Assembly: GCF_023169965.1 (NCBI RefSeq)
Contig: NZ_AP025592.1
Coordinates: 2,914,001 to 2,978,000 of the forward strand
DNA length: 64,000 bases
Direction of reading: 5' to 3'
Source of the DNA: Anaeromyxobacter paludicola
Lineage (GTDB): Bacteria > Myxococcota > Myxococcia > Myxococcales > Anaeromyxobacteraceae
Below, one piece after another: positions 44,275-62,063 of the stretch. A program made the position numbers and the translations under genes. The notes beneath the pieces were generated by a model. That model made no database searches and had not been told where the DNA came from. It worked only from the letters and a program-made list of their open reading frames with translations. How positions within the stretch are numbered: position 1 is the first letter of the stretch; every line of letters starts with the position of its first letter.

Positions 44275-45825
44275 CTACCGCATCACCAGCCCGAGCCCCT
44301 TCATCTCCTTGGGCTGCGGCAGCCCGAGCACCTGGAGGGCGGTGGGCGCGACGTCGGCGAGCACGCCCTCCTGGCGCAGCTTCGCGCCCTTGAAGTCCGG
44401 GTCGGCGAGGATGAACGGCACGGGTCCCAGGGTGTGGGCGGTGTGCGGCTGGCCCGTCACCGGATCGACCATCAGCTCGCAGTTGCCGTGGTCGGCGGTG
44501 ATGAGGAGCGCCATGCCGGCCTGCCGCGCCGCCGCCCAGAGCCGGCCGATGCACTCGTCCACCACCTTCACCGCCTTCACGGCGGCGTCGAGGATCCCGG
44601 TGTGGCCCACCATGTCGGGGTTGGCGAAGTTGGCGAGGATGAAGCCGTACTGGCGCGACTGGATCGCCTGCACGAGCTTGTCGGTCACCTCGCGCGCGCT
44701 CATCTCGGGCTTCTCGTCGTAGGTCTTCACGTCGCGCGGGCTCGGGACCAGGATCCGGTCCTCCCCCTGGAACTGCACCTCGCGCCCGCCGTTGAAGAAG
44801 AAGGTGACGTGCGCGTACTTCTCGGTCTCGGCGCAGCGGAGCTGCTTCAGCCCGGCGCGGCTCACGATCTCCGGGAAGATCTCGGTCGGCTGGTCCGGGC
44901 CGAACGCGACCGGGAGCGTGAAGGTCTCGTCGTACTGCGTCATGCAGACGTAGGTCGAGAGGCGCGGCCGCGGGGCGGCGTCGAAGTCCTTGAAGCCCTC
45001 CTGCGTGAAGGCGCGGGTGAGCTCGCGGGCCCGGTCGGAGCGGAAGTTGAAGAACACGATCGCGTCGCCGTCGCGCACCCGGGCCCGCGGCTCGCCGCCG
45101 CCGTTCACCACCACCGTCGGCTTCACGAACTCGTCGTTCTCGCCGCGCCCGTAAGCGTCGGTGACCGCCTGCACGCCGGAGGCCGCCTTGTAGCCCTCCC
45201 CCTTCACCAGGGCGCCGTAGGCGAGCGCGACGCGGTCCCAGCGCTTGTCGCGGTCCATGGCGTAGTAGCGCCCCGTGACCGTCGCGACCTTGCCGTAGCC
45301 GAGCTCGGCGAGCCGCTTCTCCACCTGCGCCACGTACCCCTCGGCGCTCCGCGGGGGCGTGTCGCGCCCGTCGAGGAAGCAGTGCACGAAGGTGCGGGGC
45401 ACCCCCTCCCGCCGCGCCAGCTCCACGCAGGCGAAGAGGTGCTCCAGGTGGCTGTGCACGCCGCCGTCGGAGACGAGCCCGAGCAGGTGGAGCGTCCCCG
45501 AGCCCGACTTCGCCTTCTGGCAGGCGGAGAGGAGCGCCGGGTTCTGGAAGAAGGAGCCGTCCTCGACGGAGCGGTTGATGCGCACCAGGTCCTGGTAGAC
45601 GATCCGGCCGGCGCCGAGGTTGGTGTGGCCCACCTCCGAGTTGCCCATCTGGCCGTCGGGCAGGCCGACCGAGAGACCGCTGGTCCGCACCGCGGTCCAG
45701 GGGTAGTCCCGCTTCAGCGCGTCGATGTTCGGCGTGCCGGCGATGGCGATGGCGTTCGCCTCGCGCGCGTCGCGCAGGCCGAAACCGTCGAGGATCACGA
45801 GCAGAACCGGCTTCGGCTTGGGCAA
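44275..45825 (-). CDS. gpmI: 2,3-bisphosphoglycerate-independent phosphoglycerate mutase
   Basis: Interconverts 3- and 2-phosphoglycerate using two Mn ions. 516 residues from TTG 45825 behind GAGGTG; the frame continues upstream but the family starts at PKPVLLVILDGFGLR. The phosphoserine loop DGQMGNSEVGHTNLGAG carries the catalytic Ser near residue 62. Other metal and substrate motifs are SDGGVHSHLEHL, FLDGRDTPPRSAEGY, NFANPDMVGHTGIL and ITADHGNCELM. It is upstream of comF and has a well-formed promoter. Confidence 0.95.
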   Translation of the reverse strand: MPKPKPVLLVILDGFGLRDAREANAIAIAGTPNIDALKRDYPWTAVRTSGLSVGLPDGQMGNSEVGHTNLGAGRIVYQDLVRINRSVEDGSFFQNPALLSACQKAKSGSGTLHLLGLVSDGGVHSHLEHLFACVELARREGVPRTFVHCFLDGRDTPPRSAEGYVAQVEKRLAELGYGKVATVTGRYYAMDRDKRWDRVALAYGALVKGEGYKAASGVQAVTDAYGRGENDEFVKPTVVVNGGGEPRARVRDGDAIVFFNFRSDRARELTRAFTQEGFKDFDAAPRPRLSTYVCMTQYDETFTLPVAFGPDQPTEIFPEIVSRAGLKQLRCAETEKYAHVTFFFNGGREVQFQGEDRILVPSPRDVKTYDEKPEMSAREVTDKLVQAIQSRQYGFILANFANPDMVGHTGILDAAVKAVKVVDECIGRLWAAARQAGMALLITADHGNCELMVDPVTGQPHTAHTLGPVPFILADPDFKGAKLRQEGVLADVAPTALQVLGLPQPKEMKGLGLVMR

Positions 45826-58707: not shown

Positions 58708-59052
58708 CTACCGGGCCGCCCGCGCCACGAGCGGCGGGGCCGGCACCGGCGAGGGCGCCCAGGTCGCGTCGTCGTGCCCGGCCGGGAGCGCCGGCCCGAC
58801 GGCGAACGCGTCGTCGCGCCCCGCACCGAGCGCCTCGACCGGCCAGGCGGTGTCGTCGTGGCCGGCGGGCAGCCCGGGGCCGAGCGCCGTCGGTTCGGCG
58901 GAGGCGGGCTGGGGCGCCGCGGCCGCGCCGGTCGGGTCGTCCGGCCAGGCGGCGTCGTCGAAGCCGGCCGGCTTGCCCGCTCCGGCGGCGCGAGCGGTGG
59001 CGGCGCTCCCGAGCAGGAGGACGAGGGCGGTGCGGCGGAACGTGCGCTTCAT
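58708..59052 (-). CDS. Small exported protein with PAG[FH]DDxxW repeats, predicted ECF regulon member
   Basis: 114 residues from ATG 59052 behind GGGAGAG. Signal peptide with cleavage expected after ATARA (residue about 22). The mature 90 residues carry repeated motifs: PAGFDDAAWP (29-38), PAGHDDTAWP, a degenerate GAGRDDAFAV, and PAGHDDATWA, joined by Pro/Ala/Gly linkers. No cysteine. I know of no family with this pattern. His-Asp-Asp-Trp clusters could bind metal ions or interact with a partner. It has its own ECF-type promoter identical in core to the two on the other side of the locus. Confidence 0.78.
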   Translation of the reverse strand: MKRTFRRTALVLLLGSAATARAAGAGKPAGFDDAAWPDDPTGAAAAPQPASAEPTALGPGLPAGHDDTAWPVEALGAGRDDAFAVGPALPAGHDDATWAPSPVPAPPLVARAAR

Positions 59053-59102
59053 GGTGCTCTCCCTGGGGCGGGCCGGAGGTGCTGATCCCGCCGCGCGGTG
59101 GA

Positions 59103-59127
59103 AACGCCGCCGGCCCCGAGCGGTTCC
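59103..59127 (-). promoter_or_regulatory. ECF-type promoter of the GHDD-repeat gene
   Basis: Minus strand GGAAC (59127-59123), 16-nt spacer, CGTT (59106-59103). The same core and spacing as at 59225 and 60644. Transcription would start about 45 nt before the ATG. Confidence 0.75.
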
Positions 59128-59224
59128 GGCGGCCCTCGGGCCATTCGGAGTCGTCCCTTGGAGGCCCGCCTTCCCGGCGCGGCGACGAGACGGGTGCCTT
59201 TGGGCGACCTTCTCAGGGCGTGCG

Positions 59225-59249
59225 GGAACCGGATCGGGCGTCCCGCGTT
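59225..59249 (+). promoter_or_regulatory. ECF-type autoregulatory promoter of the sigma/anti-sigma operon
   Basis: GGAAC (59225-59229), 16-nt spacer, CGTT (59246-59249), 42 nt before the preferred sigma start. This matches the classical ECF consensus; such sigma factors normally drive their own promoter. Confidence 0.78.
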
Positions 59250-59291
59250 CTTTCCGCCGACATGGCCGCTGCCGACGCTAGGAAGCTCGTC

Positions 59292-59843
59292 ATGGCGCGC
59301 TGGCGCTCGGAGGACGAGGTGGCCGCGCTGGGGCGCGAGGCGCTGGCGCACGCCGACGCGCTCCACGACCTCGCCTGGCACCTCACGCGCGACGACGAGG
59401 AGGCGGCGGATCTGGTGCAGGAGACCTTCGCCCACGCGCTCCAGGCCGCGCGGCGCTTCGAGCCCGGGAACCTCCGCGCCTGGCTCTTCCGGATCCTGCG
59501 GAACGCCTTCCTCTCGCGCCGGCGGCGCGATCGGCGCAGCCCCATCGACGCCTCGCTCGACGGCGACGACGCCGCGGACCGGGCCGCGCCGGTCGCGGGC
59601 CGCGAGGGGCTCGAGGCCGAGCAGCTGCGGCGGGTGGTGGGGGACGAGATCGAGGCCGCGCTGGCGTCGCTCTCGACGGAGGCGCGGTGGGTGGTGCTGC
59701 TCGACCAGGAGGGGCTCACGGAGGCGGAGATGGCGGCGACGCTGGAGTGTCCCGCCGGGACGGTGAAGTCGCGGCTGGCGCGCGCGCGGGCGGCGCTCCG
59801 GGAGCGGCTCGCCGACTACGGCGCCGAGGGAGGGCTGCCATGA
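59292..59843 (+). CDS. ECF-family RNA polymerase sigma factor
   Basis: 183 residues from ATG 59292, with AGGAA eight nt upstream; an ATG at 59262 would add ten. Region 2 shows LHDLAWHLTRDDEEAADLVQETFAHALQAARRF and LRAWLFRILRNAFLSRRRR (the -10 recognition helix). Region 4 shows ALASLSTEARWVVLLDQEGLTEAEMAATLECPAGTVKSRLARARAALRERL (the -35 recognition helix-turn-helix). Its stop overlaps the anti-sigma start (ATGA). No extra C-terminal domain. Confidence 0.93.
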   Translation: MARWRSEDEVAALGREALAHADALHDLAWHLTRDDEEAADLVQETFAHALQAARRFEPGNLRAWLFRILRNAFLSRRRRDRRSPIDASLDGDDAADRAAPVAGREGLEAEQLRRVVGDEIEAALASLSTEARWVVLLDQEGLTEAEMAATLECPAGTVKSRLARARAALRERLADYGAEGGLP

Positions 59844-60622
59844 ACGGGCACGCCGGGCGCGACAGCTTGCGCGACCTCTCCCGGGGCCGGCTCCCGCCGG
59901 CGCTCGAGGCCGAGGTCCGGACCCACCTCGCTGGCTGCGAGGGGTGCGCCGCCGCCGTCGAGAACGAGCGCGCCCTCGACGACGCGCTGGCGCGCCGCCC
60001 GCGCCGGCCCGCGCCGGCCGAGCTGCGCGCGCGGCTCGCCGCGATGGCCGCCGGCGCCGGGCCGCCCCGCCCCCGCGCCCCGGCCGCCCGCCGCTGGGCG
60101 ACGCGGCTCGCCGCGCCCGTCGCGGCCGCCCTCGCCGCCGGCCTGCTGGTGTTCGCCGGCCTGCGGACGCACCAGGACCGGCGCGGGCTCGACGAGGCCC
60201 GCGCCCGGCTCCGGGTGGAGGCGGTCAACGACCACCTGCGGGTCCTCAAGAGCGAGCGCCCGCTCGAGGTGCAGGCCGGCGGCGCGCACCAGGTGAAGCC
60301 CTGGTTCGAGGGGCGGGTGGACTTCGCGCCCGACGTGCCGGACGCGCCCGGGCTCGTGCTGCGCGGCGGCGCGGTGGGCTGGTTCCACGACCGCGACGCG
60401 GCGGTGATCGCCTACACGCTCCGGCTGCACAAGGTGACGCTGCTCGAGTTCCGGTGCGCCGGCCTGCCGTGGCCGGCGGCCGACGCGCCGAAGCAGCAGC
60501 CGCCGCACCGCGGCTACAACGTGTTCGCCTGGAAGAAGGGTGAGCTCGGGTACGCGCTCGTGTCCGACGCCAGCGCCGCCGACCTCGGCGCGGTGGCGAA
60601 GGCGATCGCGGGGACGCTGTAG
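59840..60622 (+). CDS. zf-HC2 anti-sigma factor with a periplasmic sensor domain
   Basis: 260 residues from ATG 59840 (ATGA overlap with the sigma gene). The N-terminal zinc anti-sigma module has His29-xxx-Cys33-xx-Cys36 (THLAGCEGC), a ZAS motif. A transmembrane helix near residues 92-112 (AAPVAAALAAGLLVFAGL) is followed by a periplasmic domain of about 145 residues. That domain carries PWFEGRVDFAPDVPD, GWFHDRDAAVIAYTLRLHKVTLLEFRC and PPHRGYNVFAWKKGELGYALVSD, with one Cys and several His. Similar anti-sigma proteins sense metal or envelope redox stress. It should hold the sigma factor inactive until a periplasmic cue acts. Confidence 0.9.
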   Translation: MNGHAGRDSLRDLSRGRLPPALEAEVRTHLAGCEGCAAAVENERALDDALARRPRRPAPAELRARLAAMAAGAGPPRPRAPAARRWATRLAAPVAAALAAGLLVFAGLRTHQDRRGLDEARARLRVEAVNDHLRVLKSERPLEVQAGGAHQVKPWFEGRVDFAPDVPDAPGLVLRGGAVGWFHDRDAAVIAYTLRLHKVTLLEFRCAGLPWPAADAPKQQPPHRGYNVFAWKKGELGYALVSDASAADLGAVAKAIAGTL

Positions 60623-60643
60623 CGGCGCGCCCCACCCGCGCCT

Positions 60644-60668
60644 GGAACCGCGGCGCGGCGGCGGCGTT
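60644..60668 (+). promoter_or_regulatory. ECF-type promoter of the phosphoesterase-cupredoxin pair
   Basis: GGAAC (60644-60648), 16-nt spacer, CGTT (60665-60668), 32 nt before the phosphoesterase ATG. It is the third copy of the identical core in 1.6 kb. Confidence 0.72.
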
Positions 60669-60700
60669 CTCTCCGGTGACTGGAACCCCCCGGAGCCACC

Positions 60701-61690
60701 ATGCGCGACCGCATCGACCGCAGGACCTTCCTTCGCATCGCCGGCCTGTCCCTCGGGGCCGGCGCCCTCTACCGCGTGGGCGCCTTCGCCGGCGCGGAGG
60801 GCCAGGACGCGGCGCGCGCGCTCGGGCGCGCCACCGGGGAGGCGCCGGCGCCCTTCACCTTCGTGCAGCTCAGCGATCCGCACGTCGGCTTCTCGGGGCC
60901 TCCCAACCCGACCGGCACCCAGGCCTTCGAGCGGGCGGTGGCCGAGATCAACGCGCTCCCGCAGCGGCCCGACCTCGTCCTCTTCACCGGCGACCTGTCG
61001 CACGAGTCGGAGAAGCCGGGCGAGCACGCCGCGCGCATGGCCCGCTTCCGCGAGATCGCGGGCCGGCTGCGGGTCCCGGCGATGCACGCGGTCCCGGGCG
61101 AGCACGACGCCGGGCTCGACGGCGGCGCGCTCTTCCGGAGCTTCTTCGGCGAGACCTCGTACTCCTTCGACCACAAGGGCGTGCACTTCGTGGCCCTCGA
61201 CAACGTCTCGCGCGCGAAGCCCGAGGTGGGGCCGGAGCGGCGCGACTGGCTGCGGCGCGACCTCGCCCGGTTCCCCAGGACCGCGCCCATCGTGGTCTTC
61301 ACCCACCGGCCGCTCTTCGACCTCCGGCCCGACTGGGAGTGGTTCACCCGCGACGGCGACCAGGTGATGGCGCTGCTCGAGCCGTTCGAGAACGTGACCG
61401 TGCTCTACGGCCACATCCACCGCGAGGACGTGCACCGCGCCGGGCACGCCACCCATTACGCGGCGCGCTCGCTCATCTTCGCCTTCCCCGACCCGGCCAC
61501 CACCCCGGAGAAGAAGCCCATCCCCTTCGACCCGGCCCGGCCCTTCCGCAACCTCGGGCTCCGGCGGCTCGACGCGCGCCGGGAAGGCGGGGGCGGCCTC
61601 GCCATCGCGCCGACCGAGGTGGAGCTCACGCTGCGCAAGCTCTCCGGCACCGAGGGCTTCGCCCAGCTCCTCCGCCCCTCGTCCCTCTGA
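60701..61690 (+). CDS. Tat-exported calcineurin-like metallophosphoesterase
   Basis: 329 residues from ATG 60701 behind GGAG. A twin-arginine signal (DRRTFLRIAGLSLGAGA) predicts folded export. The metal-binding set is FVQLSDPHVGF, FTGDLSHE, VPGEHDAGLD, VFTHRPLF and LYGHIHREDV. The usual GNHD is GEHD, so the metal-bridging Asn is Glu, a variant known in parts of this superfamily. The substrate is not predictable. It is followed by the cupredoxin 28 nt later and preceded by an ECF promoter, placing it in the sigma regulon. Confidence 0.88.
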   Translation: MRDRIDRRTFLRIAGLSLGAGALYRVGAFAGAEGQDAARALGRATGEAPAPFTFVQLSDPHVGFSGPPNPTGTQAFERAVAEINALPQRPDLVLFTGDLSHESEKPGEHAARMARFREIAGRLRVPAMHAVPGEHDAGLDGGALFRSFFGETSYSFDHKGVHFVALDNVSRAKPEVGPERRDWLRRDLARFPRTAPIVVFTHRPLFDLRPDWEWFTRDGDQVMALLEPFENVTVLYGHIHREDVHRAGHATHYAARSLIFAFPDPATTPEKKPIPFDPARPFRNLGLRRLDARREGGGGLAIAPTEVELTLRKLSGTEGFAQLLRPSSL

Positions 61691-61718
61691 TCCCCACTTA
61701 CCCCCCAGGAGGAACCCG

Positions 61719-62063
61719 ATGCGCCCTGCCCTCTTCGCCGCCGCCGTCGCCCTGCCGCTCCTCGCCGCCGCGCCCGCCCGGGCCGCCGATCCCGTCACCG
61801 TGACCATCGTCGCGAAGCGCTTCGAGTTCACGCCGAAGGAGGTCCGGCTCAAGGCCGGCCAGCCGGTCCGGATCGTCCTCCGCAGCGAGGACGTGACCCA
61901 CGGGTTCTTCCAGCGCGAGCTCGGCATCGACGCCGAGGCCACGAAGGAGACGCCCGCCGAGATCACCCTCACGCCGGCGAAGCCGGGGCGCTACGTGACC
62001 ATCTGCGACCACTTCTGCGGGTCGGGCCACGGCAACATGAAGATGACCTTCGTGGTCGAGTGA
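61719..62063 (+). CDS. Free-standing CuA-type cupredoxin (COX2-like domain)
   Basis: 114 residues from ATG 61719 behind AGGAGG. Signal peptide ending PARAA. The mature domain of about 92 residues is a single Greek-key beta-barrel: VTIVAKRFEFTPKEVRLKAGQPVRIVLRSEDVTHGFF and YVTICDHFCGSGHGNMKMTFVVE. The ligands His (VTHGF), Cys and Cys (C-xxx-C), His and Met (CGSGHGNM) form a complete binuclear CuA site as in cytochrome oxidase subunit II. It lacks transmembrane helices and heme motifs. Likely periplasmic electron carrier or copper handler. Confidence 0.9.
   Translation: MRPALFAAAVALPLLAAAPARAADPVTVTIVAKRFEFTPKEVRLKAGQPVRIVLRSEDVTHGFFQRELGIDAEATKETPAEITLTPAKPGRYVTICDHFCGSGHGNMKMTFVVE

Follow-up and report, generated by a model that had tools for sequence, protein, structure and literature searches.

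In the window, by which we mean the whole stretch of 64,000 nucleotides of Anaeromyxobacter paludicola DNA analyzed here, genes for an ECF sigma factor and a membrane anti-sigma factor lie among genes for secreted proteins, with predicted promoters of a single type in front of them:

58708..59052, minus strand: gene of the GHDD protein, a secreted protein of 114 aa recognized from its sequence by a signal peptide and [FH]DD[TA][AT]W repeats
59103..59127, minus strand: predicted ECF promoter GGAAC-N16-CGTT, 50 nt from motif end to GHDD start
59225..59249, plus strand: predicted ECF promoter GGAAC-N16-CGTT, 42 nt from motif end to the sigma ATG at 59292
59292..59843, plus strand: gene of an ECF sigma factor of 183 aa (Pfam Sigma70_r2, 58 bits; Sigma70_r4_2, 51 bits)
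59840..60622, plus strand: gene of a membrane anti-sigma factor with a zinc domain (Hx3Cx2C), one transmembrane (TM) helix and a periplasmic domain with HxVKPWF (zf-HC2, 20.9 bits; cut-off 22.2)
60644..60668, plus strand: predicted ECF promoter GGAAC-N16-CGTT, 32 nt from motif end to PPE start
60701..61690, plus strand: gene of a Tat-secreted calcineurin-like metallophosphoesterase, PPE (Metallophos, 54.9 bits; RRTFLRIAG signal)
61719..62063, plus strand: gene of a secreted CuA-type cupredoxin (CDHFCGSGHGNM, upstream His in THGF; Cupredoxin_1 and COX2 matches)

The sigma factor consists of regions 2 and 4 only; both Pfam domains score above the gathering score, and TIGR02937 matches at 79.7 bits (cut-off 42.9). 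Its closest solved relatives are SigE and SigH of M. tuberculosis, and its recognition helix reads GTVKSRL. We place the start at ATG 59292 because AGGAAG precedes this codon as a ribosome-binding site and there is space for a leader; the start at ATG 59262 is unlikely, as nearly no leader would be left after the promoter.

The sigma and anti-sigma genes share 4 nt (ATGA). As in other zinc anti-sigma (ZAS) factors, the sigma gene is adjacent and the ligand series H29-x3-C33-x2-C36 is present, with a zf-HC2 score slightly under the cut-off; ZAS-type fold matches include zinc-form RsiW and ChrR chains, at E-values that are not significant. The periplasmic motif reads HQVKPWF in the window's protein, HxVKPW is present in 75/80 relatives, and three histidines of this sensor domain (H132, H150 and H197) are conserved. 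The AlphaFold model has a pLDDT of 86.6 for the full-length protein and 91.7 for the sensor domain alone, and the best Foldseek matches of the latter are all RseB/MucB (E ~3e-3, probability 1.00, TM ~0.46). Since E. coli RseB compared with a 53-sequence sensor profile (hhalign) reaches a probability of 0.9%, which amounts to no match at the sequence level, we speak of a resemblance to RseB/MucB in modeled fold and not of membership. A structure search of a viral library returned no match. This VKPWF-type sensor domain is without a Pfam name. We note in passing another ECF sigma/anti-sigma pair in the same genome (L037, C1:397700-399200) with a related sensor and an adjoining response-regulator gene, an arrangement that recurs across the order (several of L016-L030), and, in G004, a second, shortened anti-sigma copy (L033:8981-9547, C1) that has a TM helix and a VKPWF-type domain, lacks the zinc domain and is divergent from PPE.

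The initial annotation had read the two downstream genes as a Tat phosphoesterase and a CuA cupredoxin, and signal, domains and ligands support both identities. The PPE carries the ligand series of the calcineurin type (D-x-H, GD, GNH[D/E], H, GHxH), with D59, H61, D98, H202, H238 and H240 conserved. In calcineurin-like enzymes motif III is GNH[D/E], whose Asn normally ligates metal; the motif III found here, GEHD, is an unusual variant and is present in 85/87 relatives. The cupredoxin aligns with T. thermophilus CuA (2cua/2lln) and has the CuA ligands C96, C100, H104 and M107 together with the upstream H61. The pattern Cx3Cx3Hx2M is found in 85/86 cupredoxin relatives, in 29/86 of which Met replaces the upstream His. 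The protein probably binds copper, and this is all that the CuA ligands indicate.

With regard to the promoters, the three copies of GGAAC-N16-CGTT that had been reported shortly before start codons are indeed at these positions and with equal N16 spacing, and their leaders measure 50, 42 and 32 nt, the second value assuming sigma ATG 59292. Sigma-70 promoters were sought in the region and none were found. When spacers of 15-17 nt are allowed, the window holds 4 matches against 0.61 expected from shuffles, a count attained by 1/100 shuffles; the fourth match, at 44769, is intragenic (within ORF 44275-45825, minus strand). The initial annotation had proposed a genome-wide scan for this string. 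Pattern searches of the complete 4.59-Mb genome gave 47 GGAAC-N15-17-CGTT matches versus 12 for a reversed pattern control, with N16 spacing in 33/47, but most sites are intragenic (40 other stretches examined). With an N16 spacer the offset between the boxes is 21 nt, which is divisible by 3; reading-frame bias by itself can thereby favor N16 in genes, and part of the N16 excess can presumably be explained in this way. The CGTC variant, which is used in part of the comparison below, is at background in this genome (65 matches versus 63 for the control in a GGAACG-N-CGTC scan). Since copies of it are common in the genome, mostly intragenic and possibly favored by reading frame, the bare string is weak evidence alone and not diagnostic, an outcome foreseen by the refuting condition that the initial annotation had set, and it is the comparative evidence that carries the regulon claim. 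As a separate observation from the same genome, C1:3219745-3219771 (L075) holds a perfect or near-perfect inverted repeat, GGAACGGGCCTATTATTAGCCCGTTCC, ~150 nt before a gyrA-like gene.

It might be argued that a common string has clustered here by chance in a G+C-rich genome, and that the genes are co-located and not co-regulated by this sigma factor; 33 N16 copies genome-wide and the chiefly intragenic location of the matches would fit such a view. Three N16 sites inside 1.57 kb anywhere in the genome nevertheless have P ~0.002 under random placement, even before their correct placement relative to genes is counted, and placement before both sigma and PPE genes is repeated in several phyla, the promoter code varying in step with the recognition helix, all of which leaves chance a very improbable explanation.

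The comparison was based on 87 loci, namely 80 from a PPE search of GTDB genomes, one plasmid locus and six Myxococcota loci. The initial annotation had also proposed a comparison of gene order. Sigma, zinc-finger/TM anti-sigma, PPE and CuA-type cupredoxin are all present in 79/87 loci, a fraction that applies to this subfamily and not to phosphoesterases at large because the loci were picked by PPE similarity. Within the window's own order PPE is patchy, being present in 14/145 genomes. The loci are mostly from Pseudomonadota, Acidobacteriota and Myxococcota; the module is widespread, occurs in many soil and water bacteria and is not peculiar to the A. paludicola genome. The commonest layout, in 56 loci, is divergent, with anti-sigma and sigma running one way and PPE and cupredoxin the opposite way. 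Other neighbors are far rarer than the four genes, c-type cytochromes coming next (15 and 6 loci). Among five more distant plasmid relatives inspected, four are without a recognizable adjoining sigma, whereas in the remaining one a sigma and a Rieske protein are present. On a Mycobacteroides abscessus plasmid (L092, NC_021278.1) a Rieske protein gene overlaps the sigma gene in the usual anti-sigma position and is followed by cupredoxin and PPE, with a molybdopterin oxidoreductase nearby; this is possibly an actinobacterial version of the module with an iron-sulfur sensor.

A search for GGAAC-CGTT upstream of module genes across all phyla found it mostly absent outside the window's clade, and this absence led to a second promoter type. 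In the wider family, GGAATA-N15-17-GT stands before 69/83 sigma genes and 55/87 PPE genes, as compared to 0/86 cupredoxin and 2/80 anti-sigma genes (together 2/166), which, standing second in their operons, provide internal negative controls; the background is ~3.4%. In the window's clade, GGAAC-N15-17-CGT[T/C] occurs within 120 nt of 8/8 sigma genes and 4/4 PPE operons examined. For instance, the cupredoxin-PPE operon of one relative, G022 (L223), which lies far from both sigma copies of that genome, has GGAACCG-N16-CGTC 36 nt upstream. The occurrence of the predicted promoter before all eight sigma genes of the clade supports, at the level of promoter sequence, the autoregulation earlier suggested for the ECF sigma/zinc anti-sigma operon, and its recurrence before PPE genes of relatives, the unlinked G022 operon included, argues for the proposed co-regulation of the PPE-cupredoxin operon.

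The recognition helix follows the same division. It reads GTVKSR in 8 sigma factors and GTVMSR in 77, and 69 of the latter have the GGAATA type of promoter and 0 have GGAAC alone. The GTVKSR clade is monophyletic in the sigma tree (support 100/96; G047, one of the eight, is not in the tree), and a single K clade implies one evolutionary event, so that the Fisher value of 1.7e-9 overstates independence. We speculate, at somewhat less than even odds, that in one Myxococcota lineage the helix (GTVMSR versus GTVKSR) and every target promoter (GGAATA-GT versus GGAAC-CGT[T/C]) changed together, the unlinked operon included, while the PPE-cupredoxin operon and the VKPWF sensor were kept across phyla. 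In another genome, G043, a DoxX-like gene (L044:1409-1987) is divergent from a GTVKSR-type sigma gene, with GGAACC-N15-CGTT (1423, plus strand) upstream. DoxX-type proteins are also known from copper-induced operons.

The GHDD protein matches nothing in Pfam and NCBIfam, and candidate homologues in 60 relatives were merely low-complexity matches, none of them convincing. In G022, each of two sigma genes lies near a gene for a secreted protein, whose motif is HDDTTYPDD in one case and YDDTTYPDD in the other; both of these secreted-protein genes have a promoter of the same type 54-58 nt upstream. These genes match the GHDD gene in motif and position, and it is on this analogy, with homology absent from the argument, and on its own promoter 50 nt upstream that the GHDD gene is a probable member of the regulon, as had been claimed. 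A further small secreted protein in the A. paludicola genome (L079:950-1207), with an FDDAQYG motif and a C-terminal His/Cys tail (CTCHG), recalls the GHDD repeats.

The description of the regulon as self-contained found no support, as a c-type cytochrome gene elsewhere in the genome (C1:4149003) bears the same promoter sequence, GGAAC-N16-CGTT, with the ATG following after 42 nt. Cytochromes related to it in G004 (L181) and G022 (L184) carry related sites, the former just 9 nt from the assumed start, and most of the relatives tested are without a clear site. Judged by promoter sequence, the unlinked cytochrome is a likely further target of the sigma factor. The YceI/b561-like operon at C1:3542176 also has a site, but no clear equivalent was seen in three relatives and it is the weaker candidate.

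Promoter placement, gene identities and conservation, all read from sequence, point to one autoregulated ECF-sigma regulon, a reading to which we assign a probability of about 0.85. At rest, the membrane anti-sigma would hold the sigma factor with its zinc-binding cytoplasmic domain, as in well-studied ECF systems, from which we infer this step. A periplasmic signal acting on the RseB/MucB-like HxVKPWF domain would then free the sigma factor, which in turn would transcribe, from GGAAC-N16-CGTT, its own operon, the Tat-phosphoesterase/CuA-cupredoxin operon, the divergent GHDD gene, whose product is secreted, and probably also the unlinked c-type cytochrome gene. Promoter binding by sigma, its release from the anti-sigma and the co-expression of these genes are predicted steps. 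Since the recurrent targets carry electrons (the CuA protein and c-type cytochromes), our preferred guess for the signal is a disturbance of the periplasmic redox state or of the respiratory chain.

Copper or oxidative damage, which the initial annotation had considered as the trigger, is unproven. In a copper-stress response the anti-sigma would sense periplasmic copper and the regulon would handle it, as might be suggested by the CuA ligands of the cupredoxin, by the conserved H132, H150 and H197 of the sensor and by an ECF/anti-sigma pair of C. metallidurans transcribed divergently from gig, an operon induced by copper (PMC10304878). The conserved histidines, however, form no known copper site, the gene content of gig differs, and no copper exporter, multicopper oxidase or other copper-resistance gene is recurrent near the module in the 87 loci, which makes this reading quite unlikely.

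Alternatively, the module might respond to sulfite or reactive sulfur in the manner of S. meliloti RpoE1/RpoE4 (ECF26), with the cupredoxin and cytochrome as electron acceptors. In that sulfite response, sorT is under RpoE4 control together with a cytochrome c and a pseudoazurin (PMC3511301), and the GGAATA/GT promoters of ECF26 (PMC6180224) are the type found in the wider module family, although not in the window's clade with its GGAAC-N16-CGTT. A sulfite-oxidase-like molybdoenzyme adjoins a related anti-sigma in G045, and the Mycobacteroides plasmid unites molybdopterin oxidoreductase, sigma, Rieske protein, cupredoxin and PPE. Against this, sulfite dehydrogenase is not recurrent in the 87 loci; RpoE6 (ECF26), to which the window's sigma is 38% identical, forms a long, weakly placed branch of the sigma tree; and its anti-sigma EcfR6, unlike that of the window, is without Hx3Cx2C and the VKPWF domain and matches the N-terminal half of the profile only. 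We regard a sulfite response as unlikely, and retain a redox or respiratory-chain signal as our preferred guess.

ECF regulons as such are already known, and this one stands out as a variant through its gene set, through an RseB-like sensor fused to the anti-sigma and through a promoter code specific to its clade. A literature search for an ECF sigma factor with a metallophosphoesterase and a cupredoxin found no description of the combination, just as the initial annotation had known of none; it did not take in the 2021 ECF reclassification, which may list this gene context as a group. We judge the regulon to be real, conserved and of a known kind, and not previously characterized in the literature found. 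By placing a secreted phosphoesterase whose metal motif is unusual and a CuA electron carrier under what would be a single envelope signal, the module suggests an unrecognized periplasmic process. It is met repeatedly in environmental Pseudomonadota, Acidobacteriota and Myxococcota, and the literature found gives no function for it. The locus may also be a natural example of joint change in a sigma factor and its promoters, and contact residues are predicted for it.

Several known systems resemble the one described here in part. Like rpoQ-rsqA/gigPABT of Cupriavidus metallidurans, it has an ECF sigma and a membrane anti-sigma gene divergent from an operon for periplasmic proteins (PMC10304878), but the gig genes are dissimilar to those for PPE and cupredoxin, and RpoQ control of gig is itself unproven. 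CorE of Myxococcus xanthus is likewise an ECF sigma factor of the Myxococcota with, possibly, a copper link in common; its C-terminal domain is Cys-rich, it lacks an anti-sigma, and its targets are copper ATPases and an oxidase (PMC3107203), none of which are seen at the window's locus, where the sigma factor ends after region 4 and an anti-sigma is present. With RpoE1/RpoE4 the system shares a sigma factor with a co-transcribed membrane anti-sigma, autoregulation (here predicted), a cytochrome c and a blue copper protein among the targets (here predicted), and, in the wider module family, the GGAATA/GT promoter type (PMC3511301, PMC6180224), and it differs in the GGAAC-CGTT promoters and GTVKSR helix of the window's clade, in the presence of the phosphoesterase and in the absence of sulfite dehydrogenase. 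Finally, the periplasmic part of the anti-sigma resembles, by predicted fold, the RseB and MucB of RpoE-RseA-RseB and AlgU-MucA-MucB, with the difference that here the sensor is fused to the anti-sigma itself, the cytoplasmic domain is of the zinc type and the regulon is another one.
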